A stretch of DNA of 43,837 bases from a virus, in the IMG/VR virus record IMGVR_UViG_3300020205_001455, positions 1-43,837 of that record. One strand, written 5' to 3'. Below the pieces are notes generated by a model. It did not search any database and was not told where the DNA came from. It saw nothing but the letters and a program-made list of their open reading frames with translations. The translations under genes were made by a program, and so were the position numbers. Position 1 is the first letter of the stretch. Each line of letters begins with the position of its first letter. Positions 4,786-43,224 of the stretch are shown here, piece by piece.

Positions 4786-5280
4786 TCAGCCGTTGGGGAC
4801 AATCATCGCGTGGACTTGAGTAAGTCCGCTTGGCAACTTGTGAGTTTCTACTCGCAAGGCAAGACCATGACCAAGCATTGGAACGATTCCATCATCGTGT
4901 TTGGTATCGTATGTCGTACCGTCTGATCCAAATACGCCACCAAAACGGACGAGGGGAAGAAGTTCCTCTGTCTGTGTGGAGAGGCGCATGGCACAGTCAC
5001 GATCCATGTGGAAGTCGAGACCAACCATCTGAAGCCGACCCTGTGCTTGTTTTAGGGCAGACACAGGATCAATGTATGGCTTGGCAGATAGCGCACCGAG
5101 ATAGGTGTTGATACGAGCAATCGCTGCATTGGAAAGAGAAGACAGATTAATATCGGTGCCATCAAGAGCATTGTCGCCATCCTGTGGGCCAACACGCGCC
5201 CGTGTTCCTGCCATATCAAATGGCGCACCATAGGCGTTTGCCTCTGTAATTGTCTTTTTCAGTTCTTTGAACGATCTCAT
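4786..5280 (-). CDS. Virion-type protein with candidate capsid-targeting leader
   Basis: The 164-residue product begins MRSFKELKKTITE|ANAYG. The (L/I)-x-E|A junction equals the T4 prohead protease (gp21) cut site, as in gp23, and the basic MKxF-type start resembles the capsid-targeting sequence of T4 internal proteins. The rest is Gly/Asp-rich with beta character and no recognised domain. AGGAG precedes the ATG and the gene follows 11 bases after the structural gene at 5292, so the two are probably co-transcribed late. An internal head protein is the likely role; a neck or capsid-lining protein is possible. Confidence 0.72.
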   Translation of the reverse strand: MRSFKELKKTITEANAYGAPFDMAGTRARVGPQDGDNALDGTDINLSSLSNAAIARINTYLGALSAKPYIDPVSALKQAQGRLQMVGLDFHMDRDCAMRLSTQTEELLPLVRFGGVFGSDGTTYDTKHDDGIVPMLGHGLALRVETHKLPSGLTQVHAMIVPNG

Positions 5281-6583: not shown

Positions 6584-6844
6584 TTAGCCGCCTTTTGCCT
6601 TCTTCCAAAGATCAGCATCTGCGGTCTTGCGTGTCTTGCCCCCCACAATAAAAGAATTCACTCTTGCAAACGCCCATTGATGGCTTGTTGCACCTGGTCG
6701 ATGTCCACTTTTCCATGCAGCCATTCCTCTATCATAGACCTTTTTTAGAATGCCGTATGGAAGCCCGCTTGCCTTTGCTTTCTTTTCGAGAGCGGTGATG
6801 CGGGCTTCCGTGATGTCTTTTGTGAGAGACTTATAGTTTTTCAT
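6584..6844 (-). CDS. Small DUF5824-like protein with capsid-targeting-type leader
   Basis: The 86-residue product begins MKNYKSLTKDITE|ARITA, an (I)xE|A junction after a basic leader, as in T4 internal proteins. The body (GMAAWKSGHRPGATSHQWAF, then ARVNSFIVGG) matches the small phage family DUF5824 as I remember it; its function is unknown. The sequence is strongly basic, which would suit packaging with DNA. The ATG overlaps the stop of the 1199-residue gene (ATGA), so the two are made from one late message. Confidence 0.75.
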   Translation of the reverse strand: MKNYKSLTKDITEARITALEKKAKASGLPYGILKKVYDRGMAAWKSGHRPGATSHQWAFARVNSFIVGGKTRKTADADLWKKAKGG

Positions 6845-9800
6845 GACTTCTTTTCGGGATTATATCCCCATACCTTGAGTGCAAGTAACTTACGGGTGGG
6901 GCGACCTTTCTCGTCTCTCATCGCACCTTTTGCCCCCTTCATTCGATTTATAAAGTTAACTTGTTTTCCTGCCCATTCCCAATCATTAGGAGTCCACTTC
7001 TCTTTTGGTGTATCAAGCATTCGAATGATAGCACGGGCTGAATCGCGACCGCTTGTGATCTTTTTTCCATCTGCTCCCGCTTTTCCTGCTTCTTTACGGG
7101 ATAGACCTGCCTCTTCGCCCCCATCAGAATCAAGGAAAGATTCAATTTCTTTGCCTGACATGTTTACCAATTTTTGCCACTCCTTGTATAAGGATGACTT
7201 TTCTTCTTCGGACTTGTCTTCACCCAATCGCTCACGCTCACCAGGAGTGTCGTGCTTGTAGGTCTTTACAATTTCATCGCTGCCAATGAGAAGTGGTTTT
7301 CTTTTACCAATAGCAGTCCATTGCATTACACTATTGATTTTTTTTGATTCGTCAAGCCAACGGTCTGTTGTTTCGACTTCTTCACCATGCATCTTCCATG
7401 TAGTTGCATAAAAAACATCTTTCCATCGGTTACCATATCGCTTTTGGAATTCCTTCTTGATCTTTTCTTTCTTAGAGAATCTACGCGCAGAACCGCTAGG
7501 TGGACTAACTTCTAACAATAGAAAATCGAAGTCCTCGTTGATGTCGGTCTTCGGTTGGTCATTTCCAATCTCGCTGTTTCTTAGATCCTTGAGATGATCG
7601 ATGTATACTCGAATCAGTTGTGCAGACTCGTGCATGTTGCGGAGAAGGCATCTTTCCTCATATGCAATACTCATTCGAATCTTACCGTTATTGGTTTCAT
7701 CGGAGGTATCAATGTTTGTAAGACGCTCCATTGTCTCGTCATGCTCATATCCATTCTTGAGTGCTTTCAACTGACCCTTTTTTGCCAATTTCTTGTATAG
7801 GGTGCTATACTTAGAAGACTTGGTCTCGATATCCTTCTCATCAGGATTGACAAATTCCCATGATTGTGGATCATCATCGGACATCGTTTTTCGCTTTTCA
7901 AGTTTCTTCTTTCGGAGTTCTGCTTCCGCCTTACTCAAACCAGAAACATACTTCTTTGGAAGACCCGATTCCTTGTCCTTCGGGCTTTCCTTGGTCTTGC
8001 CCGTCTTTGTCTTGAATTTCATTCCTTTAGTGACATCGGCTTCGATAATGGGATCGCCTTCCACCTCATCACCCATCCCAAGGAAAGGCATAATCTTAAT
8101 TCCACCAACCATAATTTTGTTGAAGAAAGTCATGTCGATACCGCCCGATGTTATGATCTTGTCGATCAATTTGGAAAGTATCTTGCCAAATTTGTTTTCG
8201 TTGGCGAATGTAGCAATCGTCATTCCTGCTCCACTTGCTTTACGAGCCTGAGTTATAATTTCAGTTCTGGTTTTCGATACTTCTTTTCTGAACTCTTCAG
8301 GCGTGAGTGTTTTCTTCTTGTTTACCAATGCAAATATTTTTGTTGTTACAGCAGGAGTCCGAATCAACTCAACAACCGCCTTGGCTGCATCCTTGGTTGC
8401 CATTTCTGACAGTTCCTCTTCCTCCTCCTCGTCACCCTTGCGCTTGGATTTGACATCGGGTTGTGGATAGATTGCTTCTGCGGGATCGACAACCATGCCT
8501 GTCTTGCTGAGAAACTGCAATCCGATCAGTACCTTGGTTGACATGTGACTGCGATCACCTAGGCTGAACTTGATGTTTGAGTATTTCTTGCCGTGGAAAT
8601 CAATGTCCATGAGCACCACCAACCGCTTCTTTTCACCGATACCGCTCTTGACTGTAATGCGACTGACAATCTTCTTTGTTACTTTCTTACCGTTAGACAA
8701 TTTGAAAGTGACTGTGTGGTTGCCATTGTCCTTGATGTCTTCGGCATGGATCATGTTATATCCACTATTGCCTGTGTCAATCTTGGCAGTATATTCAACA
8801 CCATCGATGATTACATCTTCTCGCACCGCTAGATTTGAGAACAACTTCCAATGTGCTTTGTTGAGAATGTATTCGACAAAGTCCTCTACAAGTTCCTCGC
8901 CCTTGACATTGTCCTTGCCTTTGCCATCTTCGTAATATCGATAGTAGATATTACCACTACCTGGACTTGCATTCATCTCGATGATATATGGCTTGCCCTG
9001 ATTTATAACATGGTCGATCCCAACATAATAGCACTTACTGACTCTTGCAGCCCGCTCCACCAACTTTATTTCCTCGTCAGAAAGTTGGAAAGACCCACCC
9101 TTTGAACCACGGGCGATATTGGTGCGGAAGTCTTTTGGTGCCTTGTCTCTCTTGGCACACGCAAAGATCTTTCCATTAAGCACAATACTACGAACATCGT
9201 TCTTGAAGTCGGGTAGGAACTCCTGAATGATTATTTCTACCTTATACTTCCACAGAGTCTGAAGCACCGATTTTAGACTCTCCATGCTTTCGATCTTGGA
9301 GACACCGATTCCCTCCGCGCCCGTGAGAGTCTTGACAATGATCGGGAACTTACCACCAACTTCCTTGACTGCTGTTTCGATGTTTTCTTCGTTGGCAACA
9401 AACGCCGTGCGTGGCTGTGGCAACTCATGCTTGTTGAGAGCAATCGCTGTCTCCAACTTATTGGCACATAGTTCCATACCACCACGCTCATTGACCATGA
9501 ACACACCGTTGTTCTGTAGAATGGTCATGATTGCAACACCAATATCGCTATTCATCACACCACCGCGAACGATGGCTACGGTATTGCTCGGTGAGATTGT
9601 ACAATCCTTGCCTTCACCATCATAGTTCTTGATGACAATCTTCTTCGAGGCAACATTTGAAATCTCTATTTGAGCCTTCGATGTCTTGATTGCATAGAAC
9701 TCAATCTTACGCCGCTTACAAATTGATTCTACTTTTTCAACCGTGTCACTCAGATCCTTCTCTGATGATGTAAGAGCAATAATACACACTTTATCGTCGC

Positions 9801-10440
9801 CATCTTTGGCTTCCGTGACATATTCTTCCTTCAGGTTTAGACCTTTGCGGACATCCGAATACATCTTCTTCTTAATTGCAATATCGCTTCCAGGAACACC
9901 TGTAGCAAATTTTGCAAAGTCATTATCGAAGGCTGCTGCTCTCATCTTAGATGCCGACATTCCCTGTACGCTCTGTGAATCATCATCTCGTACATCTCCC
10001 GCCTGTACCACTTCAAAATTGTCGAAGGAATACTTTCGCTTCTTGGGATCGCGATCAGCAGTCTTCCCCTTATACTTCGAGATATTCTTGAAGTTCTCTA
10101 CTTGATCGCTTCCCGCAACCATGATAATGTTTTTGTATCCCAACTCACAGACATACAACACAGCAGAGTATGGATCTATTGCTTTGTTCAATGGGAACTT
10201 AGCCTTCGGGAAGAACTTTTTCAAGTACTCCACCTTCTGCTTGTGTGTCAATGGATTCTTCTTAGCATCCTGTGAAGCAGATGCAAAGATGAAGTGATCA
10301 GCATTGCGCTTCGATGCTTCGGAAAGAACTTTATCAACGAGCACACCATGACCGATTGTTGGCGGGTTCATGCGACCGAATGCAATAACAACTGTATCCT
10401 TCTTTGGTGCTTCTGTGAGATGTCGTGTAAAGTTCTTCAT
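6841..10440 (-). CDS. 1199-residue multidomain protein: nucleotidyltransferase, RimK-like ATP-grasp, RimB-like retropepsin, phage domains
   Basis: Residues 1-11 are MKNFTRHLTE|A, a capsid-targeting-type leader with the exact LTE|A cut site of T4 gp23. Residues 17-200 are a cytidylyltransferase-fold enzyme (GRMNPPTIGH at 22-31; MSASKMR at 161-167). Residues 217-530 resemble RimK-type ATP-grasp ligases, with a VKTLTGAEGIGV loop near 369-380 and IIEMNASPGSGN at 486-497. Residues 543-655 resemble RimB/PF05618 retropepsin-like proteins, with active-site D555-T-G and a KVLIGLQFL end motif. An acidic linker follows. Residues 680-1199 hold basic, mostly helical phage domains ending in a DUF6321-like segment (GRPTRKLLALKVWGYNP). 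Possible prohead-protease sites fall between domains (E210|A, E679|M, E800|A, E977|V). RimK adds glutamates to ribosomal protein S6; the phage substrate is unknown. Confidence 0.85.
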   Translation of the reverse strand: MKNFTRHLTEAPKKDTVVIAFGRMNPPTIGHGVLVDKVLSEASKRNADHFIFASASQDAKKNPLTHKQKVEYLKKFFPKAKFPLNKAIDPYSAVLYVCELGYKNIIMVAGSDQVENFKNISKYKGKTADRDPKKRKYSFDNFEVVQAGDVRDDDSQSVQGMSASKMRAAAFDNDFAKFATGVPGSDIAIKKKMYSDVRKGLNLKEEYVTEAKDGDDKVCIIALTSSEKDLSDTVEKVESICKRRKIEFYAIKTSKAQIEISNVASKKIVIKNYDGEGKDCTISPSNTVAIVRGGVMNSDIGVAIMTILQNNGVFMVNERGGMELCANKLETAIALNKHELPQPRTAFVANEENIETAVKEVGGKFPIIVKTLTGAEGIGVSKIESMESLKSVLQTLWKYKVEIIIQEFLPDFKNDVRSIVLNGKIFACAKRDKAPKDFRTNIARGSKGGSFQLSDEEIKLVERAARVSKCYYVGIDHVINQGKPYIIEMNASPGSGNIYYRYYEDGKGKDNVKGEELVEDFVEYILNKAHWKLFSNLAVREDVIIDGVEYTAKIDTGNSGYNMIHAEDIKDNGNHTVTFKLSNGKKVTKKIVSRITVKSGIGEKKRLVVLMDIDFHGKKYSNIKFSLGDRSHMSTKVLIGLQFLSKTGMVVDPAEAIYPQPDVKSKRKGDEEEEEELSEMATKDAAKAVVELIRTPAVTTKIFALVNKKKTLTPEEFRKEVSKTRTEIITQARKASGAGMTIATFANENKFGKILSKLIDKIITSGGIDMTFFNKIMVGGIKIMPFLGMGDEVEGDPIIEADVTKGMKFKTKTGKTKESPKDKESGLPKKYVSGLSKAEAELRKKKLEKRKTMSDDDPQSWEFVNPDEKDIETKSSKYSTLYKKLAKKGQLKALKNGYEHDETMERLTNIDTSDETNNGKIRMSIAYEERCLLRNMHESAQLIRVYIDHLKDLRNSEIGNDQPKTDINEDFDFLLLEVSPPSGSARRFSKKEKIKKEFQKRYGNRWKDVFYATTWKMHGEEVETTDRWLDESKKINSVMQWTAIGKRKPLLIGSDEIVKTYKHDTPGERERLGEDKSEEEKSSLYKEWQKLVNMSGKEIESFLDSDGGEEAGLSRKEAGKAGADGKKITSGRDSARAIIRMLDTPKEKWTPNDWEWAGKQVNFINRMKGAKGAMRDEKGRPTRKLLALKVWGYNPEKKS

Positions 10441-11639
10441 GGATCGTTTATCTTTCGATTCTGTCTACTAAACCGCAGACGATTGACCAACTTAACCGCA
10501 GTTCCTGTACGGACGATTACAATCCCCTCGGGATCAGTTGGGCGAATACCATCAGCATCCATGAAGAAGTGACCGAGAGCAGAGACCGCATACATTTTGG
10601 CAAGGATGATTTCCTTGACTTTAGAGATCTTGTTGTGCAGTTCAAACATGTCGGAAAATTGACCATCATAAGCATCGATGAAAGCGATCAAATCATTTAA
10701 GGCGGCTTCTTTGGCCTGTTTGCCCTTCTCAGTCTTCAGTTTATTTATTTCTTTTTCCAATTTAGTCTTAATATACAGTTTCAAACCACCCGATGTGAAA
10801 CTTGTGAGACCGCCGTTGATGGTACTATTGATATAAGGAAGCAGCATTGGCATGAGGTCTTTACGGGCTAGCAGAGTCTTCAGGAAGGGCTTTACCTTCT
10901 TGGCTAGGGCTTCACACTCAGAGATGCTCCGAATCGCGGTATCGCCTTCTCCACCCTTCAGAAGGGCAGGAGTCAAATCGTAGATGTTCGGGTCTGTAAA
11001 CCAAACATCGGGATGTTGTTTGAGTTGATTTGCATTAAAATTGAAGGAGGTTGCCCGTATATCGGCAAGTGTCTTCCCCGAATACTCTGTATGGAATGCG
11101 ATTCCAATCTTTGCAGCCCCAACCCGTTTGCCGATTTCGCTATCTTTTGGAACGGTGTATAAAATTGTGTTAGGCTGAAATCCAATATGCGGTTGACCGT
11201 TGATGGTCAGACTCTTCTTGGAATTGCCAACGAACATTAAGTCGCCCTGTAGTATGGTTTTGATTCCAATTTTTGAAAGATATTTTAAGCATTCGACTAA
11301 CTTATCTGCCAAGTCCTTTATCTCAAATCCCTTGCGAATTTCTTGTTCGGTGTGGAATACCTTTTGAACTTCCTTACCGAAAATTCCTTTAATTGCGACA
11401 AAAAACTTCTTGTTCTCGGGATGAATACCACATATGACGGCAGGTTTGCCATCCCATTTTGTGGACATTCCCAATGATGTGCTGCCCGTCTTTAGGCTCT
11501 GTACAATGTCCTTCATGAAGGCAATTGAATTGTCCAGTCCACTACCGCCACGAAGAAGCATGAGATCTTCAATGTGATCTAAATGTTTATTTGTTTCTGT
11601 TTGCTCCATGAGGGGAAGCAATTGTTTAAATGACAGCAT
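10437..11639 (-). CDS. Nucleotidyltransferase/ligase-fold protein with candidate capsid-targeting leader
   Basis: The start at 11639 (MLSFKQLLPLMEQTETN) is chosen because AGGAG lies close upstream; the longer frame runs through the tRNA-Ile gene. The 400-residue product has a KWDGKPAV motif near residue 63, matching motif I (KxDG) of ATP/NAD ligases and capping enzymes. ILQGDLMF near 130 resembles motif III, and DPEGIVIV with a following VKLV near 380 resembles motifs IV and V. Homologous proteins of unknown function (DUF6267-like, from memory) occur in aquatic T4-like phages. The leader contains LME|Q, a possible prohead cut. It heads the late operon with the 1199-residue and 86-residue genes. 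A repair ligase delivered with the genome is one reading; no activity is proven. Confidence 0.75.
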   Translation of the reverse strand: MLSFKQLLPLMEQTETNKHLDHIEDLMLLRGGSGLDNSIAFMKDIVQSLKTGSTSLGMSTKWDGKPAVICGIHPENKKFFVAIKGIFGKEVQKVFHTEQEIRKGFEIKDLADKLVECLKYLSKIGIKTILQGDLMFVGNSKKSLTINGQPHIGFQPNTILYTVPKDSEIGKRVGAAKIGIAFHTEYSGKTLADIRATSFNFNANQLKQHPDVWFTDPNIYDLTPALLKGGEGDTAIRSISECEALAKKVKPFLKTLLARKDLMPMLLPYINSTINGGLTSFTSGGLKLYIKTKLEKEINKLKTEKGKQAKEAALNDLIAFIDAYDGQFSDMFELHNKISKVKEIILAKMYAVSALGHFFMDADGIRPTDPEGIVIVRTGTAVKLVNRLRFSRQNRKINDP

Positions 11640-15528: not shown

Positions 15529-15920
15529 GGGGTTGTACTCAAGAGTTTGCGAAGATGCAGCAATGATGTACCCATCTGATCTGCTGTGCCAAAAGACAAG
15601 GCAAGGTCATCGATGTAAATGTCCGCGATTATTTTTGGGCTGTATCCCGATAACTTTGCCCGTTCTTTCTCGGGCAAATTTTTGTTGACAGCGTCAAATG
15701 ATAGACCTCTTTGGCGACACCACTCAATCGCCTCCGTCAGAGACTTGTATTTCTCGTTGTCCCCTCTGTTAGTCCAAAGTACCAACTTATGTCCCTCTGA
15801 CTGTAGTTTCAAGAGCAGGGACAACAGTTCTTTGTGCTTTTCCTTCTGCTCCCCGATGTCGGGAAATCCATATTCACACAAGGTTCCATCAAAATCAACG
15901 GCGATTACTAGGCTCTTCAC
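15525..15920 (-). CDS. HAD-superfamily phosphatase
   Basis: The 131-residue product begins with a GTG codon (VKSLVIAVDFDGTLCE) that overlaps the preceding stop (GTGA). HAD motif I is DFDGT at residues 9-13, motif II is LWTNRG near 50 and motif III/IV ends in DIYIDD near 108-113. Such small cap-less HADs dephosphorylate sugar phosphates or related small molecules. Its position inside the sugar cassette suggests a sugar-phosphate or keto-acid sugar phosphate as substrate, by inference. Confidence 0.82.
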   Translation of the reverse strand: MKSLVIAVDFDGTLCEYGFPDIGEQKEKHKELLSLLLKLQSEGHKLVLWTNRGDNEKYKSLTEAIEWCRQRGLSFDAVNKNLPEKERAKLSGYSPKIIADIYIDDLALSFGTADQMGTSLLHLRKLLSTTP

Positions 15921-17083
15921 TTATCAACCTCCTGATTATTCACATCGACAAGACTCTTTGCCATCGCGTATGCGTGTTTGATGGCTGATTGATTCCGAAA
16001 GAAGTCATCATGCACGATGAATTCCTCCACAATATCTCGCGCATATGTTCCAATTGCAACACCATTGATCCGAACACCGACCATGTCAGCAAGTTGCTTG
16101 CTCAACGCATTCGTTCCACCCGACAGAACAATAGGAACAATACTTGGTTCCGAGACCTCTTTGTATATCTTTTTGGCAGCAATCATCTGCTTGCCGATGC
16201 GATCTTTTTCCCGCTTCTTGTTCAGTTTCATGTTGAACTTTTTGTTGATAACATCGGCACATGCAACAGCCTGTAGAGTAGTGTTGTAATCGTTCTCACC
16301 ACCACTCATGGGATAACCATCTGCTTGAATAAGCAGTCTGTCTCCCGCGACTTTGCGTGCCTCTTCGATTCTGTGTTCCAAACGAAGATTGCCCAAATTC
16401 AAACGATCTAGGCACATCGAATTGTAATTAGATGTGTTGATGTGATTGATCAGTTTCCATTCGTCCATGGTGATATCGTTTTCACCAACGGCAGCATGCA
16501 GTTCAAAGAGTTCGGCACCAGCCTTCATGCACCTTGGAAGAAGATCTAGAAGTTCTCTTGCGTTGTGACGATAAGAGATGACTTCCGCTTTTGGGCAAAT
16601 ATTGCTGCACTTTCCACAGCCGATACAAAGATCCTTGATAACGATTTCTTTTGACTGATCCTCATTCTCAAAACTGCCGCTCAACTCCTTGAATACATCT
16701 AGTCTGAGGATGAAATCCTTTGGTATGGCATCGGTTGGGCAAACAGGAATGCACAGGCTGCACCCGATGCATGTGGTTGGATCGATGTAGGATTTCCGAA
16801 CATGGTGGTCACCAGGCATTCCCACACTAACCATGATGTATGGTCGAACGCCAATTTGGATACCATTCTCGGATGCATATTCATAGGCAAGATCGATCCC
16901 ATCTACCGCACTAGCAACTACATCCACATTAGCAGACACATCAAGAATTTTTGCACCCGCTAGGGTATAGACGAATGCAAGTTTCTTGACTTGAACTTTG
17001 TCTTCGTTTCCCGCACCACAGATCATTTTAAAGCATTTCTGCTTCCGAATGATCGATTGAAGAATTTCAAAACGCTCGTTCAT
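15917..17083 (-). CDS. LdpA-like protein with two [4Fe-4S] clusters
   Basis: The 388-residue product has an N-terminal block, FKMICGAGNEDKVQVKKLAF, then VYTLAGAKILDVSANVDVV, that matches the start of cyanobacterial LdpA (light-dependent period) proteins as I recall them. Two ferredoxin-type sets follow: C105-x2-C108-x2-C111-x3-C115-P and C153-x2-C156-x2-C159-x3-C163-P. The C-terminal half resembles a TIM-barrel-like region (LIQADGYPMSGG; IVLSGGTNALS). LdpA senses redox state and affects the circadian clock in cyanobacteria. Here the operon position, between a TPP enzyme and a HAD phosphatase, points instead to electron transfer or catalysis in sugar synthesis. It is the most unusual member of the cassette. 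Confidence 0.72.
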   Translation of the reverse strand: MNERFEILQSIIRKQKCFKMICGAGNEDKVQVKKLAFVYTLAGAKILDVSANVDVVASAVDGIDLAYEYASENGIQIGVRPYIMVSVGMPGDHHVRKSYIDPTTCIGCSLCIPVCPTDAIPKDFILRLDVFKELSGSFENEDQSKEIVIKDLCIGCGKCSNICPKAEVISYRHNARELLDLLPRCMKAGAELFELHAAVGENDITMDEWKLINHINTSNYNSMCLDRLNLGNLRLEHRIEEARKVAGDRLLIQADGYPMSGGENDYNTTLQAVACADVINKKFNMKLNKKREKDRIGKQMIAAKKIYKEVSEPSIVPIVLSGGTNALSKQLADMVGVRINGVAIGTYARDIVEEFIVHDDFFRNQSAIKHAYAMAKSLVDVNNQEVDK

Positions 17084-17093
17084 TTGTTGTGCC

Positions 17094-18881
17094 TCATGGA
17101 ATAGAAACGATCATCTCGGACTTCAATTCTTCGTCAGACAGAAAGGGTGCCATGTCGTGTAGACCACCTTGAGTTCCGTTTGGCTTGAATGCCTGTGCGG
17201 GGAGAACATCAAGAGTATCCTGACTGATCAACTCAACAATCAGGGGCTTGTCTTGTCTTAGAATCCATGGCATTTTTTCGTCAAGTTGTTCGTTGTTTTC
17301 TACGCGGACATAGTCGATTTCAAATGCCGCCGCAATCTTTGCGATGTCCGCAAAATACACACCCGTGCTATTGCTGACACCGTGTAACCTTCCACCAAAA
17401 AACTTTGTCTGTGTTTGCTTGATGCTCATGTATCCATCGTTGTTAACGACGAGGATTTTCACAGGAATGTTGTTCTTCCTGATGACAGCCAACTCCTGCA
17501 TGTTCGTGTGAAAACTGCCTTCACCAATACAAGCAATAATGTTGTGGTTTGGGGATGCAAAGTGAATTCCAACTACGGCTGGAACTGCATATCCCATGTC
17601 GCCCTGTGCTGCCTGTACCATGTATTTCTGTCCCTGCTTCAACTTCAAGTTAGTTGAGCAAATATAACATGGCTGACCCGCGTCCGCAACAACAATGTCG
17701 CAGGATTTCATATTTTGATTGAGGCTTTCCACAATTTCGTACAGGTTCAACCCACGAACATCAGGTCTGTGAACTTCGGGAATGTAGATGGGCCATTTGT
17801 CTTTCCAGTAAGAACACTTCTTTGCCCACCACGACACATCCCAATTTTCAGATCTAGTCTCGTTCGCCGCGACAAAAAAATCAGCAACATTTCCATTGAT
17901 CGCAACATCAACATTGAATGTTTTCTTTCCAAGTTCACTCTTGTCAATGTCGATCATGATCTTTTTGCTATGTGGGCTAAAAGACTTTGCATCATATCCA
18001 ATGTGCGTGACATTCATCGAACTGCCCAAGATGATCAGGCAGTCTGAATTCTGAACTGCAAAGTTTGCACATCGATTTCCTTTGATTCCCATCATCCCGA
18101 TGTTTTGTGGGTGATCGTACTCAATCAAATCTCGGGTCAAGAAGTTGGTGACAAAGGGCACACCGTACAGGTCAACAAATTTTCTGAACTGATCTGTACT
18201 TTTGCTGTGTGCGATACCCGCGCCCGCGATGATTACAGGTCTGTTCGACTGAAATACAATCTCCTTCAGGGCGGTTTTGATCTGACTGATGGATGTGCTT
18301 GCTTCTTGTTCCTCTTCAGGAATGTACAGATCGTACTCGGTTGGCATGGGGGCAGTTTGAATATTCGATGGCACATCGATCCAAACAGGCCCTGCTCTTC
18401 CCGATGATGCAATGTAAATTGCCTTTTCCAGTTCATACGCAAGGCGACTCACATCTTCGATCAGTACAGCATACTTGGTCATGTTCTTGGCTGTATTGAC
18501 AATGTCATGTTCCTGTATCCCGTACTTGCGTAGATTGAGTCCGCGAGTCTTGTTGATGTATGACGCAATGTCGGTGAGTTTGGTGTTCCCGCTAAGGAAC
18601 AGAACAGGGACACTCTCCTGCCATGCATTCAGACAACTCGTTAGTGCGTTCGTCCCCCCACAGCCTGTCGTGACATTGACAACGGCAAGCCGTTTGTTTG
18701 TTCTTGCAGAACCTACCGCTGCGTGACCCGCACCTTGCTCATGGTGAAATGGGATGTACTGAATGTTTGGATTGCAGATAAACCCATCGTTGAGTCCACC
18801 ACAACCGCCGCCTACCATTCCGTAGACATGGGTAACACCTTCTCGCTCAAGTCGCTGTGTGATATAGTCACAAACTCTCAT
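17094..18881 (-). CDS. Thiamine-diphosphate-dependent enzyme, acetolactate-synthase-like
   Basis: The 595-residue product has the full three-domain layout of TPP enzymes. The catalytic Glu is E48 in FHHEQGAGHAA. The central domain has AGAGIAHS near 219-226. The TPP motif runs from GEGSF (453-457) to VVNND (478-482). Family members decarboxylate pyruvate-like 2-keto acids and add the fragment to an acceptor. In dideoxysugar pathways the YerE-type enzyme adds a two-carbon branch to a 3,6-dideoxy-4-ketosugar, and the RfbH-like gene nearby makes this attractive, but phylogeny was not tested. AGGAA precedes the ATG. Confidence 0.85.
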   Translation of the reverse strand: MRVCDYITQRLEREGVTHVYGMVGGGCGGLNDGFICNPNIQYIPFHHEQGAGHAAVGSARTNKRLAVVNVTTGCGGTNALTSCLNAWQESVPVLFLSGNTKLTDIASYINKTRGLNLRKYGIQEHDIVNTAKNMTKYAVLIEDVSRLAYELEKAIYIASSGRAGPVWIDVPSNIQTAPMPTEYDLYIPEEEQEASTSISQIKTALKEIVFQSNRPVIIAGAGIAHSKSTDQFRKFVDLYGVPFVTNFLTRDLIEYDHPQNIGMMGIKGNRCANFAVQNSDCLIILGSSMNVTHIGYDAKSFSPHSKKIMIDIDKSELGKKTFNVDVAINGNVADFFVAANETRSENWDVSWWAKKCSYWKDKWPIYIPEVHRPDVRGLNLYEIVESLNQNMKSCDIVVADAGQPCYICSTNLKLKQGQKYMVQAAQGDMGYAVPAVVGIHFASPNHNIIACIGEGSFHTNMQELAVIRKNNIPVKILVVNNDGYMSIKQTQTKFFGGRLHGVSNSTGVYFADIAKIAAAFEIDYVRVENNEQLDEKMPWILRQDKPLIVELISQDTLDVLPAQAFKPNGTQGGLHDMAPFLSDEELKSEMIVSIP

Positions 18882-18896
18882 TTGTTCCTGCCTTAG

Positions 18897-19637
18897 TTAG
18901 GTTCGACCGATGATAGCGGCTTTTCTCTTCTTGTCCGACATTACCGATGCTTCTGTACTCAAGAGTCGTCTTTCAAGGTTAGCCAATTCAAACTTAAGCG
19001 CGTGTTCAATCGTGCCTGTGTGAATGAACTTATCGACAGACATGACAACTTTTCTTGTTTCGACATAGTCAATCAGGTCGTATAGTTCCTCGTCTGAGAC
19101 CAAGGTTTCAACAGTTCCCCTACTGACATTGCCACCCATCGTGACCTTTAGTCCACGGGACTTGGCTTCGTGGGCCACTTTCTTTACCATGGAGATCGTC
19201 TTTTCAGATTCCACACTAGTGCCTCCATATGAGGCAGTCAGATCGTTTCTGCCAATGGTTACTTCGGTCAGGAGGTTTCCTGCTTTGATGATGCCAACAA
19301 CATTGTCAACCGCTGTAATCGTTTCGATTGTTACACCAATGTGTTCAAAATGATTCGGCGGAACCATGTTCATGAACTTTTGCATCGCAAATGGCGACTC
19401 TATCATCGGTACAACCACAGAAGTCACACCGATGTTTACGAGATATTGCAAGTTGGTCTTGGCTTCACTACCGCCAATCTTGATCAAGTAGTCAAGGTTG
19501 TTCTTTGCAGAGAGAATTGCTTCTCTTGCAACTTCAGTTTCTGTAAGACCCTCTGCCTCCATCTCTCCCTTGAGAGAGACAAAGCCAAACAGTTCCTTGC
19601 CTTCACGAAGAATCTTGTCGATGCTGCTTTCGCTCAT
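18897..19637 (-). CDS. HpcH/HpaI aldolase/citrate-lyase-like protein
   Basis: The start at 19637 (MSESSIDKIL) has AAGGA 8 bases upstream; ATGs at 19679, 19673 and 19655 are alternatives without one. The 246-residue product resembles the TIM-barrel HpcH/HpaI family: VVVPMIESPFA near 77-87 supplies the E of the metal site, and TIGRNDLTASYG near 127-138 supplies the conserved Asp. These enzymes cleave or form C-C bonds with pyruvate or an acyl donor. The partner TPP enzyme suggests a branched or keto-acid-derived sugar, by inference. Confidence 0.75.
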   Translation of the reverse strand: MSESSIDKILREGKELFGFVSLKGEMEAEGLTETEVAREAILSAKNNLDYLIKIGGSEAKTNLQYLVNIGVTSVVVPMIESPFAMQKFMNMVPPNHFEHIGVTIETITAVDNVVGIIKAGNLLTEVTIGRNDLTASYGGTSVESEKTISMVKKVAHEAKSRGLKVTMGGNVSRGTVETLVSDEELYDLIDYVETRKVVMSVDKFIHTGTIEHALKFELANLERRLLSTEASVMSDKKRKAAIIGRT

Positions 19638-19672
19638 TTCAAATATCCTTTTCATTTTAAATATTTCTTTCA

Positions 19673-20629
19673 TTACCAAACGAACTTGTTCTTATAGTGC
19701 TTAATGATTCCGCTTAGTTCTTGGTCAAATACAGCCCGAGGTGACCAACCCAATTTCCTGATCTTAGAATCATCAAGTGAGTACCGAAGATCCTGCCCAA
19801 CTCTAGAACAGGTCACATCTATGTAGTCGTTGATGTTGAAGTCTTTTGTCCCCAACAACTCGACAAGAATCTTTCTGACCGTCTCTAGATTGGTCTGTTC
19901 AAACCCACCCGAGATGTTGTATATCTCGTTCTTGATCCCACTCTCCACGACCTTGACAACACCCTCTGCCGTGTCCGCTGCATGAAGCCATGTACGCACA
20001 GGAGTGCCGTTGTTGTGAAGGGGAACCTTTCTGCCAAGGTGAAGATACTTGCATGTTTTGGGAATCAATTTCTCTACATATTGACCGATTCCATAGTTGT
20101 TCGTGGGGCGAACAATGATATAGGGGATGTTGTATGTCCTGCCCCATGCCACGATCAACATGTCAGCAGCAGCCTTGGTAGCAGAGTATGGATTCGAAGG
20201 CTTGAGAATGTCTCCCTCATGGTGGGCACCGTCAACGATGTCACCGTAGACTTCGTCTGTGCTGAAATGAAGAAGGATTGGAACCTTTCCACTTTCCTGC
20301 CTGTAGTTTCGCATCAGATTGAGAATGGTATGGACTCCATCGATATTAGACTTGACGAAATCGTCGCTGTTGACGATTGAGTTCCCAACATGGGTCTCGG
20401 CTGCGGTGTTGATAATGTAGTCGCAGTCATAGAGGAACTTCAAGTCATTGATGTCGCAATGGACAAACGAAAAGTTCTTATGCTTTTTGAATTCCTCAAG
20501 CAAATCCTCGTTTGCAGCATATGTGATCTTGTCAACGCCCTTGACATACCACCCCTTCTCTAAGCAGAGTCGGGTTACATATGAGCCAATGAAGCCCAAG
20601 CATCCTGTTATATAGACAATCTTGACCAT
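19673..20629 (-). CDS. NDP-glucose 4,6-dehydratase (RfbB-like)
   Basis: The 318-residue product is an extended SDR. The NAD site is TGCLGFIGS at residues 8-16, the catalytic triad set is STDEVYG (123-129) with Y148-SATK152. The STDE sequence separates 4,6-dehydratases from epimerases, since the acid pair performs the dehydration. It converts an NDP-hexose to the 4-keto-6-deoxy sugar, the usual substrate of the RfbH-like enzyme encoded next upstream. Sequence does not decide dTDP versus CDP sugar. GAGG precedes the ATG. No NDP-glucose synthase gene is in the window. Confidence 0.88.
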   Translation of the reverse strand: MVKIVYITGCLGFIGSYVTRLCLEKGWYVKGVDKITYAANEDLLEEFKKHKNFSFVHCDINDLKFLYDCDYIINTAAETHVGNSIVNSDDFVKSNIDGVHTILNLMRNYRQESGKVPILLHFSTDEVYGDIVDGAHHEGDILKPSNPYSATKAAADMLIVAWGRTYNIPYIIVRPTNNYGIGQYVEKLIPKTCKYLHLGRKVPLHNNGTPVRTWLHAADTAEGVVKVVESGIKNEIYNISGGFEQTNLETVRKILVELLGTKDFNINDYIDVTCSRVGQDLRYSLDDSKIRKLGWSPRAVFDQELSGIIKHYKNKFVW

Positions 20630-30024: not shown

Positions 30025-30953
30025 GCGCCCCTTTGTTTTGGATAGTGTGGTGTCTTGTTGCGGGTCTCGAACTCTTTGCGGAGTTTCTTTGTCTCTGCCT
30101 TGGTTGTGCCAAGTACATAAGCATACTTGTGCTTCGATGGCATGTCAACAGAAACCGATTTCGATTGCTTCAATTTACTGTGAGATCTTAGTGCAGCCTC
30201 AATTATAGGGGGGACATTCGTCCAAAGCATTCCCTTATTGTCACACCAAGACTTGTCCCATTCGATTCCCAACTCTTTTGCGTATTTTCTATATGCGCTT
30301 CTTTGGCGAAAGAAACGGTCGGAAACGATTCTCCCTGTATATGGATTCACATATCGCGTAGTTGTGCCTGAATTATTTCCAAGATAATAGAAGTTACATG
30401 CCTGATATATGGTTCCAATTTCCTTAGCAGTTGGATCTGAATACGCGGTGAATAAACGATATTGTGTATTCTTCACCATCCATCCGATATTCCACATTAG
30501 GAATGCGGATGCAAGATTCTTTGGACTCCATGAGATACATGCGCCCCTGCTGATGAGGCGTTCGATGTTCTTCGTGTCCTCGCCAAGCAATTTGCTAAAT
30601 GCATTGGGAAGATTCATAAGAGTGACACCTGCAAGGATGTCCTTACCCATGAGACCTTGATTCGGATCATGGTAATATGCACCAAACCAATGGGTTGTGT
30701 ATTGAGATAGATTGCCTAGCCACTCATGCCGTTCGATGAAGGCTGTGGCATCCTGTCGATCTTGCTGTGTGGTTAGTGGTCGGAAATGAAAGTCAGCAGC
30801 GGTAAGAGTCTTAATACACTCGGGATCGATACCACTCTCCACGATGTCCTGTGGAAGATTGTTTACGCGGATGTCGTACTGCCAACAATGATCTTTGTCA
30901 TAGTTCTTAGCGCGTTCAATGATATCGATAGCAGATCGTTTTTTCTTACTCAT
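30021..30953 (-). CDS. Mom-like/GNAT-fold protein, possible DNA adenine modification enzyme
   Basis: The 310-residue product has a central domain reading HWFGAYYHDP, ILAGVTLMNLPNAF, LISRGACISWSPKNLASAF and EIGTIYQACNFYYLG. This order, a strand with G-V, then S-G-A and GTIYQACN, resembles phage Mu Mom, which converts adenine to N6-methylcarbamoyl-adenine and has a GNAT-like fold. The C-terminus is basic. It sits directly beside two DNA methyltransferase genes, which supports a DNA-modification role. I cannot exclude another GNAT activity. Confidence 0.6.
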   Translation of the reverse strand: MSKKKRSAIDIIERAKNYDKDHCWQYDIRVNNLPQDIVESGIDPECIKTLTAADFHFRPLTTQQDRQDATAFIERHEWLGNLSQYTTHWFGAYYHDPNQGLMGKDILAGVTLMNLPNAFSKLLGEDTKNIERLISRGACISWSPKNLASAFLMWNIGWMVKNTQYRLFTAYSDPTAKEIGTIYQACNFYYLGNNSGTTTRYVNPYTGRIVSDRFFRQRSAYRKYAKELGIEWDKSWCDNKGMLWTNVPPIIEAALRSHSKLKQSKSVSVDMPSKHKYAYVLGTTKAETKKLRKEFETRNKTPHYPKQRGA

Positions 30954-31825
30954 TCCATGATGTCCAAAAGGCTCGGCTTGATCTTGTCTGCAATTCGATC
31001 CTCTGCGATCTTTATATAATCAGGATTCAATTCAGTCCCAATATAATTCCGTCCGTTCTTCAAAGCCACCACAGCAGTTGTTCCGCTGCCTGTGAATGGG
31101 TCAAACACCGTTCCGTCCTGTGGACATCCTGCAAGCACACACGGCAAGATCAGGTTTTCAGGGTATACCGCAAAGTGTGCGCCCTTGTAGCCCTTCGCGT
31201 TCACCGTCCACACGGATCGCTTGTTCTTCTTTTCTTGACCATACACAGCGGGTTCCTTCACGGCTTCGTGATCGTAGTAGTAGTGGGGCTTCTTGGACAG
31301 CAGGAAAATATACTCATGCGACTTGGTGCAGCGGTCTGCCACGCTTTCAGGCATGGGGTTCGGCTTGCTCCAAATAATGTCTTGACGCAGATACCACCCG
31401 TCTGCCTGTAGCGCAAGTGCAACGCGCCACGGAATACCAATAAGGTCTTTCGATTTCAATCCATCAGGAACTTTGGTGATAGATCGCATTCCTCCCGCCA
31501 AATATGTTGCTTTTTGTCCTACCTTCATTTTGTGAATGGTATTCCTCATTGAGTCCACACCACCGCCATTCCTTGCGTAACTATCCCCAAGGTTCAACCA
31601 CAGCGTACCGTCATCACGCAGGATACGGCGCACCTCACGGAACACCTCCACCATCTTCTGTACATAGCCATCAACGGTGTCCTCCTGACCAATCTCTGTA
31701 TCCCCTCCATCATATGAACGGAGTCCGAAATAAGGAGGTGATGTAATGCAAGTCTGAACGCATTTATCGGATAGCGTCTTCATGCCTTCAATACAGTCGC
31801 CAAGAATAATATGGTGTGTGTTCAT
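30950..31825 (-). CDS. DNA methyltransferase (beta-type, SPPY), tandem copy 2
   Basis: The 291-residue product begins MNTHHIILGDCIEGM and has the catalytic motif IV TSPPYFGLR near residue 33. SAM-binding motif I, FDPFTGSGTTA, lies near the C-terminus (about 242-252), the order of beta-class amino-methyltransferases. TSPPY is most often seen in N4-cytosine enzymes, but N6-adenine use also occurs. The target-recognition segment around 85-190 differs from that of its paralogue, so the site may differ. The ATG overlaps the stop of copy 1 (ATGA). Confidence 0.88.
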   Translation of the reverse strand: MNTHHIILGDCIEGMKTLSDKCVQTCITSPPYFGLRSYDGGDTEIGQEDTVDGYVQKMVEVFREVRRILRDDGTLWLNLGDSYARNGGGVDSMRNTIHKMKVGQKATYLAGGMRSITKVPDGLKSKDLIGIPWRVALALQADGWYLRQDIIWSKPNPMPESVADRCTKSHEYIFLLSKKPHYYYDHEAVKEPAVYGQEKKNKRSVWTVNAKGYKGAHFAVYPENLILPCVLAGCPQDGTVFDPFTGSGTTAVVALKNGRNYIGTELNPDYIKIAEDRIADKIKPSLLDIME

Positions 31826-32790
31826 TCCATGATGTCCATTAGACTCGGCTTGATCTCGTCTGCAATTCGATCCTCTGCGATCTTTATATACTCGGGATTC
31901 AGTTCGGTGCCGATGTAATTGCGCCCGTTCTTCAGGGCAACCACAGCAGTTGTTCCGCTGCCTGTGAACGGATCAAACACCGTGCCTCCTGCGGGGCATC
32001 CTGCAAGCACACACGGCGTTACTAGTTCTTCGGGGTATACCGCAAAGTGTGCGCCCTTGTAGCCCTTCGCGTTCACCGTCCACACCGAACGCTTGTTGCG
32101 GGAAACACCATTTCCCAAAGTGTGAGAAAATCCCTTCCCCTTGGCTAGGCTCGAATTGTGACCAATTTCTTGCGTTCCGCTTCCTGCTCCTGCCGCTTTT
32201 CTCTTTTCCCAACTATCGACTGATCTATCCTGAGCAGGTTCCTTCACGGCTTCGTGATCGTAGTAGTAGTGGGGCTTCTTGGACAGCAGGAAGATATACT
32301 CATGCGACTTCGTGCATCGGTCTTCCATACTTTCAGGCATGGGGTTTGGCTTGCTCCAAATAATGTCTTGACGCAGATACCACCCGTCTGCTTGTAGCGC
32401 AAACGCCACACGCCATGGAATACCAATCAAGTCCTTGGTCTTCAGACCCACCTGATCCTTACGGTTTGCAGGAATAAAATCGGTGGGCATACTACGAGCG
32501 TTCCCGTTGGCTACCGTCTGCGGGGGTGGGGCACAGTTCTTTGCGCTCATGTACGAGTCACCAAGGTTCAACCACAGCGTACCGTCATCACGCAGGATAC
32601 GGCGCACCTCGCGGAACACCTCCACCATCTTCTGCACATAGCCCTCAACGGTTTCCTCTTGACCGATCTCGGCTTCTCCTCCTTGGTAATCACGCAAGCC
32701 GAAGTACGGTGGAGATGTAATGCAAGTCTGAACGCATTTGTCGGATAGCGTCTTCATGCCCTCTATACAATCGCCAAGAATAATGTGATG
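30958..32790 (-). repeat. Diverged tandem duplication of the methyltransferase genes
   Basis: DNA of the two methyltransferase genes is nearly identical over long stretches, for example around the GGCTTCTTGGACAGCAGGAA block (near 31288 and 32274) and around the SPPY codons, while two internal stretches are unrelated. Recombination between the copies could delete one gene. Confidence 0.8.
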
Positions 32791-32799
32791 TGTGTTCAC
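31822..32799 (-). CDS. DNA methyltransferase (beta-type, SPPY), tandem copy 1
   Basis: The start is taken as GTG at 32799, giving (M)NTHHIILGDCIEGM as in copy 2 and a GTGA overlap with the lysozyme-like gene stop; an ATG at 32826 would add nine residues. The 325-residue product carries TSPPYFGLR near residue 33 and FDPFTGSGTTA near the C-terminus. It differs from copy 2 mainly in the segments near residues 75-115 and 195-235 (an insertion with KRKAAGAGSGTQE). The pair is a recent tandem duplication. Confidence 0.88.
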   Translation of the reverse strand: MNTHHIILGDCIEGMKTLSDKCVQTCITSPPYFGLRDYQGGEAEIGQEETVEGYVQKMVEVFREVRRILRDDGTLWLNLGDSYMSAKNCAPPPQTVANGNARSMPTDFIPANRKDQVGLKTKDLIGIPWRVAFALQADGWYLRQDIIWSKPNPMPESMEDRCTKSHEYIFLLSKKPHYYYDHEAVKEPAQDRSVDSWEKRKAAGAGSGTQEIGHNSSLAKGKGFSHTLGNGVSRNKRSVWTVNAKGYKGAHFAVYPEELVTPCVLAGCPAGGTVFDPFTGSGTTAVVALKNGRNYIGTELNPEYIKIAEDRIADEIKPSLMDIME

Positions 32800-33218
32800 T
32801 TCATTTCTTTCTGTATCTTCTTCCAATACTTTATGGTTGCTCTCTTGGTGTAACCCTTGGGGCCTCCATTATGGATTCGGGCGAGTTGCTCAACAGTCGC
32901 AGTAGTGGAACCGTATCGTTTGAGGTATGCTCTGACAACTCTTTTGGCGTACTCAGGATTGAAGCAGTCCTTGTACGATCCTCCGAGCGATTTGTCGAAG
33001 TCAACCGCATCCTGCCAGTACACTCGGTGGATCTGATAGATTCCAATCGCAGCACCTCCGTCCCCAATAGCATTCGGATCGTTCTTCGACTCCACCCGTG
33101 CCAATGCAGGAAGAAGTCGGTTGATGGTATCCGTGCTGTCTGCATTAGTAAGTCTGCACGGTAATAGGAGGGTCGTAAAGAGGATGACCGATGAGAGAAT
33201 TTGGCATGATGGATTCAT
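32796..33218 (-). CDS. Exported lysozyme/lytic-transglycosylase-like endolysin
   Basis: The start at 33218 (MNPSCQILSSVILF) has AAGGAG 7 bases upstream; an upstream in-frame start lacks a site. The 140-residue product has an N-terminal hydrophobic segment (residues 7-21) like a signal peptide or SAR anchor. The catalytic core reads ALARVESKNDPNAIGDGGA, then IGIYQIH, the E43-SxxxP-A-G-GIYQI pattern of SLT/lysozyme-fold enzymes. RIHNGGPKGY and YWKK follow near the end. It probably cuts peptidoglycan during lysis, exported by the host Sec system. The gene overlaps its upstream neighbour by 74 bases. Confidence 0.8.
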   Translation of the reverse strand: MNPSCQILSSVILFTTLLLPCRLTNADSTDTINRLLPALARVESKNDPNAIGDGGAAIGIYQIHRVYWQDAVDFDKSLGGSYKDCFNPEYAKRVVRAYLKRYGSTTATVEQLARIHNGGPKGYTKRATIKYWKKIQKEMK

Positions 33219-37399: not shown

Positions 37400-37427
37400 A
37401 TCATAGCCTGTGTAATTTCAAAGTCAA
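37400..37427 (-). promoter_or_regulatory. Sigma70-type early promoter for the 45-44-62-regA unit
   Basis: TTGACT (37427-37422), a 16-base spacer and TATGAT (37405-37400) on the minus strand. The predicted start near 37393 gives a 30-base leader with AAGGAGG. The -35 box overlaps the last codons of the protease gene. Confidence 0.72.
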
Positions 37428-38128
37428 GTGGGGAACAAAGATAGTTGTCCCGATTGTTCAAGATCGTTGATTATTGTTTTGATTGGAACGACATATAGCA
37501 TGTTTGACAGTCGATTCGTTCTCACGACAATACCAATACATTTTCCTGTATTCACATCGAAAATGCCACCACCACTTGATCCATGTGTACCATTGCAAGT
37601 CACCATAAAATGCTTGTCGCTATTCCAAGGAACAATTCGATTCCGATTGGCAATGATACCTTCGCTTAATGTATTCTCCTCTCCCAATGGTGAACCACAA
37701 GCGTATACGCCGTCTCCCACCCGTGGGGACAAGGACATGAAGGTTGTTCCAACCCTGATGCGCCAAGTATCCCCCACGGGTTGAAGGATTGCCCAATCGG
37801 AATTGGTCTCATACGCAATCACATTGGCTTGCCATGTTTCCACCATTAGTTCATTATCAGGATTTGTTTGAGAGATTAGGTAAAATCCTTTACCATCTCC
37901 TATGACATGTGCCGCCGTGAGAACAAACATTTTACCGTTGTTCTCGTAGATAACTCCCGACCCGATTGATATTTCTTCCCCTACACACGCATGGATTACA
38001 ACGGTGTTGTTCAACACCCTTTCAATGACAGTCTCTGCCGCATCCTTGCGGTTTATTGGCGATGGGTTCAACGCAATTCCCAAAATGAGAATCGCAGCAG
38101 CCACGAAACCAAACATCTTGTTTCCCAT
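37424..38128 (-). CDS. Exported trypsin-like serine protease
   Basis: The 234-residue product starts MGNKMFGFVAAAILILGIAL, a signal peptide or single membrane anchor. The chymotrypsin-fold triad is visible: H74 in LTAAHVIG, D111 in NSDWAIL and S185 in HGSSGGGIF. The layout resembles the protease domain of DegP/HtrA without PDZ domains. It would act in the periplasm or at the membrane. GGAGG lies upstream of the ATG and an ATAAATA motif 37 bases upstream, so late expression is likely. Possible roles are host envelope change, lysis or virion maturation; none is shown. Confidence 0.85.
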   Translation of the reverse strand: MGNKMFGFVAAAILILGIALNPSPINRKDAAETVIERVLNNTVVIHACVGEEISIGSGVIYENNGKMFVLTAAHVIGDGKGFYLISQTNPDNELMVETWQANVIAYETNSDWAILQPVGDTWRIRVGTTFMSLSPRVGDGVYACGSPLGEENTLSEGIIANRNRIVPWNSDKHFMVTCNGTHGSSGGGIFDVNTGKCIGIVVRTNRLSNMLYVVPIKTIINDLEQSGQLSLFPT

Positions 38129-41121: not shown

Positions 41122-41129
41122 ATACCTAA

Positions 41130-41482
41130 TGGAGTCGGGGGGAATCGAACCCCCGTGATGTCATGCTTACTGTGCTGCCTACTACGCTAATATCCATCAC
41201 TTTATTCAGACCCGCCGCTGATGGCGACTTAGCGGATCAGATTTGGAGCCTTTATTCTCGGTCTTTATTGGCACTCCCATTCCTAAAGACCCATCCTTTG
41301 TTTTACCCAATCATCCTAAAGGAGTCGGATGATCGAGTGCGTCAGGCTGCGAGAGCCAAACGGCGTGACTGCTTCTTATTGAATTTGGCAGTTGTTATTT
41401 CCATACGAGTTTAAGAGCCTAGCATGGTTCCTCTTAGCGCATCACACATCAGTCTTCATGCATTCGATACCTGTTCGACCCC
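41130..41482 (-). ncRNA. ssrA: Transfer-messenger RNA (tmRNA, ssrA)
   Basis: The 353-base RNA has tRNA-like ends: 5' GGGGTCG pairs with 3' CGACTCC (one G-U), and the T arm is GGGGG-TTCGATT-CCCCC. In between, 41389-41342 encodes a tag that ends RLALAA followed by TGA. With GCC as resume codon the tag is AKFNKKQSRRLALAA, whose LALAA end is the classic ClpXP/ClpAP degradation signal. tmRNA with SmpB rescues stalled ribosomes and marks the unfinished protein. The resume codon (GCC versus ACT just before it) is inferred. A TTGACA-16-TACAAT promoter lies just upstream. tmRNA genes are rare in phages. Confidence 0.9.
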
Positions 41483-42543: not shown

Positions 42544-42616
42544 TGACGAAGATGGGAGTCGAACCCACACTTTGTTGATTTTAAATCAACTGTCTCTGCC
42601 TTTGGACTACTTCGTC
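42544..42616 (-). tRNA. tRNA with anticodon UAA (Leu), short variable loop
   Basis: Acceptor GACGAAG pairs with CTTCGTC; the T arm is GTGGG-TTCGACT-CCCAT (one G-U). The loop TTTAAAA between GTTGA and TCAAC gives TAA. The variable region is only five bases, unlike the long arm normal for tRNA-Leu. Its 5' end overlaps the stop codon of the gene at 42607. Confidence 0.82.
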
Positions 42617-43224
42617 ATATTATTCATGAGATGCCGTAGCCATGCCGTGTTAAATGTGTCAGCCTCTTGGTATGCCTCAAACACGAATGGCTTGCCCTTC
42701 ATGCGGCTGTAGAACTGACTGACCTTCATGGGCTTGAAATCTCCGACAGAGATCTCTTTGCCCATACCTGGAAACTCCACGGCGTTTCCGTCTTCATCCT
42801 TGTCTTGTGTGCCAATCAACATTCCCTTGCCATCGAACGACTTGTATAGAATGGAGTCTTGGTCATACTTCGTTCCGAACTTCTTGAGGATGCCCTTCAA
42901 CTTGCCGTTGTCGTTGCCCTTCTCGCCAATGACGAGGAACGCCTGTTCCTTCACATCCTTGGAGACCTCGGAGCCATAGCCTTCGATGTAGCGTCCTTCG
43001 ACCTTGTAGAAGCCGAACCCCGCAGAGCGAATCTCCCCCTGAAGTTGTGCGTTCCGCTTCTTGTTCTCGGATACGGGATAGCGACCGCGATAGGCGGTGA
43101 TGATCCCGATGTTGCGCTCCTGCGTGTGCTGCCATAGGCGAACGAGCGATGCCTCGTCAAGGATCTGCATACTGCTTACTTCGTTCGCTGTCTCTGTTAG
43201 ATTCTTTGTAATGTCTTTGTCCAT
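42607..43224 (-). CDS. Conserved phage protein, DUF3293-like
   Basis: The 205-residue product begins MDKDITKNLTETANEVSSMQ and contains NIGIITAYRGRYPVSENKKR, a block with following GFGFYKVEGRYIEGYGSE that recalls DUF3293 proteins. Function is unknown. AAAGG 6 bases before the ATG supports the start. LTE|T at residues 9-12 could be a prohead-protease site, as in its neighbour at 43235, but the leader lacks the MKxF pattern. The stop codon lies inside the tRNA-Leu 5' end. Confidence 0.68.
   Translation of the reverse strand: MDKDITKNLTETANEVSSMQILDEASLVRLWQHTQERNIGIITAYRGRYPVSENKKRNAQLQGEIRSAGFGFYKVEGRYIEGYGSEVSKDVKEQAFLVIGEKGNDNGKLKGILKKFGTKYDQDSILYKSFDGKGMLIGTQDKDEDGNAVEFPGMGKEISVGDFKPMKVSQFYSRMKGKPFVFEAYQEADTFNTAWLRHLMNNMTK

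Follow-up and report, generated by a model that had tools for sequence, protein, structure and literature searches.

A candidate head-packaged enzyme joining nucleotidyltransferase, RimK-family ligase and retropepsin-like domains in a T4-like phage fragment

The 43,837-nucleotide fragment of a freshwater T4-like phage that makes up IMG/VR virus record IMGVR_UViG_3300020205_001455 (positions 1 to 43,837; hereafter the window, meaning the whole stretch analysed) encodes a 1199-residue protein in which a nucleotidyltransferase (NTase), a RimK-family ATP-grasp ligase and a PF05618 retropepsin-like domain lie in a single chain. Since its front end matches the head-loading signal of phage T4, this fusion is probably carried in the virion and acts at the start of infection. 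We consider it probable that the protein is cargo of the phage head which, once injected, works as a protein-tailing enzyme. The first ten residues would serve as a T4-type capsid-targeting sequence placing the fusion in the prohead core, and a gp21-type prohead protease would remove this peptide after Glu10; the matured enzyme would be kept with the DNA in the head and then injected. The RimK-type domain would extend a target protein at its C-terminus by amino acids (probably glutamate), the fused retropepsin domain would trim such tails, and the NTase domain may catalyse adenylyl transfer onto a small nucleotide-like substrate. Direct support comes from the domains and their intact motifs, from the conservation of the fusion and of its N-terminal element, and from the published detection of homologues of both halves in virions. 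From these we infer the packaging, injection and activity of this particular protein and its target (S6 of the ribosome or some other host protein); the ribosome itself is a guess.

For years RimK-like ligases of phages have carried annotations as possible modifiers of the ribosome, with no setting in which the idea could be tested, and the effectors of the very abundant aquatic T4-like phages are, to our knowledge, almost unknown. Direct experiments come within reach through the N-terminal element, the detection of homologues in virions and a glutamate tract within the fusion: is a protein-tailing enzyme delivered with the phage DNA, and does a retropepsin operate in the phage head?

Domains and conservation of the fusion

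The open reading frame (ORF; table 1) had been proposed without a strand in the first-pass annotation; it is open on the minus strand, and the plus-strand reading of the same interval was rejected for want of an open frame. The motifs quoted in that annotation are all found in the chain, namely GRMNPPTIGH (residues 22-31), IIEMNASPGSGN (around 486-497), DTG (555-557) and KVLIGLQFL (about 636-644). Its domain sub-boundaries were about right, the C-terminal third consisting of a variable linker and a conserved DUF3140/DUF6321-like tail.

The first domain belongs to the HIGH superfamily of nucleotidyltransferases and carries the motifs GRxNPPTxGH and SASKMR. The Pfam family CTP_transf_like (PF01467) matches residues 19-119 with 19.1 bits, just below its cut-off of 21, which the homologues of phages C48C1, Melnitz and syn9 pass; PHROG 3041 ("cytidyltransferase") spans residues 6-210 (E=3e-52), and PHROG 395 also matches the domain. 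The AlphaFold model (predicted local distance difference test, pLDDT, 86) is of the PPAT/NMNAT adenylyltransferase type, with VIA-align Z scores of 12.7-14.2 and root-mean-square deviations mostly of 2.5-3.3 A over 142-160 residues. The Z scores of the PPAT rows and those of the NMNAT rows lie within little more than 1 of each other, too close for the fold to indicate a substrate. The earlier label of CTP transferase thus gives way to a predicted PPAT/NMNAT-type adenylyltransferase fold.

Membership of the RimK family is clear for the second domain, from both PF08443 (residues 327-497, E=3.7e-30, 105.4 bits against a cut-off of 21) and the NCBIfam model TIGR00768 (146.6 bits, above its cut-off of 143.4). 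The S6-modifying RimK equivalog, PRK10446, is missed by far (71 bits against 331). D476, E488, N490 and K370 are invariant in all fusion members and also in Pelagibacter phage Mosig and Yersinia phage YerA41; D476, E488 and N490 align with E. coli RimK (5zct/4iwx) at the ligase motif, where Pseudomonas RimK was aligned as well. A loss of these Mg/ATP ligands, named beforehand as an outcome that would speak against the assignment, is therefore not the case. The AlphaFold model of the RimK-RimB part has a mean pLDDT of 60, and so its Foldseek matches to RimK (7qys/7qyr) are supportive only and we relied on sequence profiles instead.

The third domain matches PF05618 with 37.2 bits, above the gathering cut-off of 27, and its profile matches the solved structures 9g58 (E=2e-11), 9g59 and 2pma with the DTG aligned, in agreement with a PF05618-like fold around D555. 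This D555-T-G is invariant in 19 sequences, Mosig and YerA41 included. Scores fall under the cut-offs of the RimB equivalog NF052261 (29.8 against 200) and of the RloA3 model (37.5 against 210), and we therefore call the domain RimB-like rather than RimB. The central claim of the first-pass annotation, a RimK-family ligase and a PF05618 retropepsin in one chain, thus holds, with catalytic motifs intact.

Full-length or near full-length homologues are encoded by at least 80 IMG/VR contigs (80 loci kept), and the fusion is therefore no assembly artefact or product of chance. Complete members have about 780-1390 amino acids; conservation extends over the first ~665 residues, and most members also share a conserved tail, the sequence being variable elsewhere. 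An alignment of 30 sequences shows invariant catalytic positions in all three domains, with part of the second NTase motif only nearly so. None of 50,697 phage records covers 80% of the protein; RimK-RimB proteins without NTase occur in Mosig and YerA41/GN1; Melnitz and some cyanophages have RimK by itself. A bacterial origin of the fusion was considered and set aside, one contig scan of genomes yielding four distant relatives only, none with the NTase matched. Defence-system models gave no match, and a phage-encoded S21, a ribosomal link present in Mosig, was found in none of ten contigs of this group.

A capsid-targeting-like N-terminus

The fusion begins MKNFTRHLTE/A (the slash marks the cut), with the same layout as T4 ipIII (MKTYQEFIAE/A), and its LTE/A is identical to the sequence at which T4 gp23 is cut, at residue 65. 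Cutting by gp21 is reported to remove 65 residues of T4 gp23 and 10 of gp24 (PMC9958956); [LI]xE/[AS] stands exactly at the cut position in both, and at residue 10 in ipIII. The layout [FY]xx[FYH][LIVF]xE is common to T4 ipIII, cyanophage NTases, the Mosig RimK-RimB protein and the lone RimK of Melnitz, and also heads the DUF6267 proteins of Melnitz and C48C1. The fusion, Mosig RimK-RimB and Melnitz RimK thus make three RimK architectures, in three phage groups, that carry the element. In the cyanophage NTases that have it, the NTase domain begins only past residue 80.

Within the fusion family the density of [LI]xE[AS] is 4.6 per 100 residues at positions 1-15, against 0.19 in the core. The window and two relatives together supply 509 proteins, of which 14 carry the N-terminal motif with its Glu no later than residue 16; 500 shuffles of the N-termini gave a mean of 0.85 and a maximum of 4. 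The start sites were called by a simple script, and some are uncertain. Both gp21 (PF03420) and gp23 are encoded by relatives, gp21 in three of them (G001, G003 and G005), and the relatives' gp23 has YLRE/S or YLKE/A near residue 47; the 43.8 kb window fragment itself holds no gp21-type prohead protease. What looks, from these sequences, like a capsid-targeting element with a gp21 cleavage site on the fusion family is new here, and the motif could be used as an easy screen for candidate injected proteins in aquatic T4-like phages. The same signal has served to catalogue many of the internal proteins of T-even phages (PMC12373910).

Homologues of both halves have been detected in particles. Mass spectrometry of S-SM1 virions revealed the NTase orthologue T4-GC190, which is listed as a virion structural protein (PMC3037559), and the S-SM1 gene labelled GC190 begins MKKFSAFLNEA. 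For the other half, the RimK-RimB protein of YerA41 (g112) was marked as particle-associated by liquid chromatography-mass spectrometry (PMC7354516); we equate g112 with YerA41_066 of the sequence record by name, neighbours and the label "structural protein", not by sequence from the paper. Action soon after injection was a guess in the first-pass annotation; the capsid-targeting-like N-terminus and these homologues in virions now speak for it.

Several observations weigh against packaging. The mass-spectrometric support concerns homologues in other phage groups only, and the YerA41 protein does not have the N-terminal motif, so that it may enter particles otherwise or be a contaminant. The motif is also missing in some family members (L050, which has ISER, L033 and L064) and in the stand-alone RimK proteins of cyanophages. 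Furthermore, N-terminal peptides were among the search patterns of two of our surveys, and the uniformity of the element in these is therefore partly selected.

The absence of the motif from the cyanophage RimK proteins would also suit an unpackaged, cytoplasmic enzyme of host takeover, whose RimK-RimB part tunes S6 or another host protein while the NTase contributes to NAD or CoA metabolism; the N-terminal motif would then be a coincidence or a folding aid. The fusion gene is surrounded by genes for replication (helicase, DNA polymerase, primase), and the YerA41 homologue is a middle gene (PMC7354516). Against this stand the enrichment of the motif, its recurrence on unrelated cargo proteins and its agreement with the site cut by gp21, as well as the homologues of both halves seen in virions; we consider this scenario quite unlikely.

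Glutamate tract and head scaffold

Directly after the retropepsin domain stands a run of six glutamates (GDEEEEEELSE). Runs of six to eight occur at this place in 39/84 loci, and the majority of the main clade has them. Among the 1584 ORFs of at least 100 residues in the 84 loci, no other contains such a run. The codons are a mixture of GAA and GAG that differs among relatives, which argues that the tract is kept at the protein level; slippage as its origin was rejected on the same grounds. In genome G001, the only relative with the tract surveyed whole, at least six consecutive glutamates occur in just two proteins, the fusion and the head scaffold gp22. Most gp22 proteins of the clade have 7-11 glutamates at the same place, while a run of six is missing from T4 gp22 and from the four cyanophage gp22 proteins compared. 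Among the three contigs with both genes, both tracts are present in G001 and G005 and both are absent in G003, a correlation of three points from related contigs. Extending the pairing was fruitless, 20/23 fusion contigs being without a gp22 match and 11 gp22 contigs without a fusion match.

These tracts suggest a role in head assembly, in which the retropepsin would cut the polyglutamate starting at residue 671 and that in gp22, thereby detaching the tail from the enzyme core and contributing to removal of the scaffold, and RimK may extend the resulting Glu-ended C-terminus. Pseudomonas RimB needs at least six contiguous glutamates and cleaves also inside proteins (PMC11957791). Conversely, by score the domain falls outside the RimB equivalog, the tract is missing from some fusions, the paired comparison covers three related contigs only and acidic tracts may have other scaffold roles. 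On balance we regard a head-assembly role as possible, though unlikely; that the retropepsin of a packaged enzyme is specifically a second head-maturation protease of phage proteins, cutting its own linker and gp22 and freeing a ligase core with a RimK-extendable Glu end, strikes us as rather unlikely. The correlation with gp22 is all the same our most interesting lead, and self-cleavage or scaffold cleavage is testable.

The tracts common to gp22 and the fusion would also agree with a core-resident structural or scaffold-associated protein, whose nucleotide-binding domains mainly aid head assembly and whose Glu tract is a core-association motif, and the listing of T4-GC190 as structural points the same way (PMC3037559). 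The catalytic residues of the three domains are conserved, however (those of the second NTase motif nearly so), and a structural role does not need them; we hold it to be very unlikely. An injected enzyme accordingly stays our preferred account of the fusion.

The linker that follows contains short modules. They recur at differing places among members, and other phages have them in their NTases or in proteins neighbouring an NTase. Further [LI]xE sites of the linker, considered as additional gp21 sites, lie at residues 679, 800 and 977, with a density only 3-fold over that of the core.

Genomic setting and comparison with known systems

Table 1. Features of the fusion gene and its surroundings (positions in the window unless another contig is named)
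Feature	Residues	Positions	Strand	Basis or remark
NTase-RimK-retropepsin fusion	1-1199	6841..10440	minus	ORF, Pfam, PHROG, NCBIfam, IMG/VR homologues, alignment
Capsid-targeting-like N-terminus	1-10	10411..10440	minus	gp21-like site, MKNFTRHLTE/A
NTase, HIGH superfamily, PPAT/NMNAT fold (predicted)	14-207	9820..10401	minus	
RimK-family ATP-grasp ligase	217-535	8836..9792	minus	
PF05618 retropepsin-like domain	541-656	8473..8820	minus	DTG 555-557
Glu6 tract	671-676	8413..8430	minus	GDEEEEEELSE
Variable linker	677-1045	7306..8412	minus	interchangeable short modules
First half of DUF5824	828-887	7780..7959	minus	weak Pfam match
DUF3140/DUF6321-like tail	1046-1199	6844..7305	minus	conserved
DUF6267 gene		10437..11639	minus	ATGA overlap with fusion start; N-terminus MLSFKQLLPLMEQ
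Second half of DUF5824, 86 aa		6584..6844	minus	ATGA overlap with fusion; N-terminus MKNYKSLTKDITE/A
164-aa protein		4786..5280	minus	N-terminus of same kind as fusion, MRSFKELKKTITE/A
Scaffold gp22		L088 15176-16273 (G001)		conserved Glu7-11 tract in the clade

The fusion gene overlaps the DUF6267 gene upstream and the DUF5824 gene downstream through an ATGA at each end, which suggests that the three are translationally coupled. DUF5824 is divided, its first half lying inside the fusion and its second in the adjoining gene. Phage C48C1 carries the first half in its NTase, which is without RimK, and so the split may be older than the fusion. The DUF6267 neighbour has a KWDG stretch resembling ligase motif I in addition to its capsid-targeting-like N-terminus, and a DUF6267 gene adjoins the NTase gene in several phages (e.g., syn9).

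Gene content of the window is T4-like, with DnaB helicase, family B polymerase, a RecA-like protein, and clamp and loader read from the translations. Other features noted in it, each on the minus strand, are a phage transfer-messenger RNA within a tRNA array (41127-41482; Rfam RF00023, 103.8 bits; ARAGORN tag AKFNKKQSRRLALAA), two adjacent and closely similar N6_N4 DNA methylase genes (30950-32826), a trypsin-like serine protease gene (37424-38128; PF13365, E=7e-20) and a metabolic cluster of thiamine pyrophosphate enzyme, ferredoxin/LdpA-like and HpcH/HpaI aldolase genes beside sugar-nucleotide genes (15917-19679). A protein of the S-adenosylmethionine lyase family, a known type of anti-restriction enzyme, is encoded on the same strand at 42607-43224 (PF23780, E=1e-10).

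In the Pseudomonas RimK/RimB pair and bacterial RimBK (PMC11957791), an ATP-grasp glutamate ligase works together with a PF05618 retropepsin, as is proposed for the phage protein, and the two are naturally fused in some bacteria. In bacterial RimBK, however, RimB is N-terminal, whereas the phage order is RimK and then retropepsin; the phage protein adds the NTase, the capsid-targeting-like N-terminus and the internal Glu tract, and scores far under the bacterial RimB and RimK equivalog cut-offs. Closer are the RimK-RimB proteins of Mosig and of the Yersinia phages YerA41/GN1, with the same domain order and catalytic positions and about 29% identity over ligase and protease. The N-terminal motif is shared by Mosig and the association with particles is known from YerA41, but these proteins have no NTase, C-terminal tail or Glu tract. 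The cyanophage core "cytidyltransferase" (T4-GC190 / PHROG 395, 3041) has a homologous NTase domain, a capsid-targeting-like N-terminus and virion status in S-SM1, with other C-terminal parts and neither ligase nor protease domain.

T4 internal proteins IPI-III and Alt provide the model for delivery, having an N-terminal targeting peptide cut by gp21 and being injected to act on the host; the internal proteins are small inhibitors and Alt is an ADP-ribosyltransferase, none with the enzymes of the fusion. The polyvalent proteins of phages (PMC5512222) are likewise large, multidomain, multi-enzyme and predicted to be packaged. The words RimK and retropepsin are absent from the text of that paper and Pfam reports none of the polyvalent hallmark domains on the fusion, the class being defined also by architecture. 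The first-pass annotation had called the fusion unusual: this does not apply to the joining of RimK and RimB, known from bacterial RimBK, Mosig and YerA41, and does apply to the added NTase and the virion signal.

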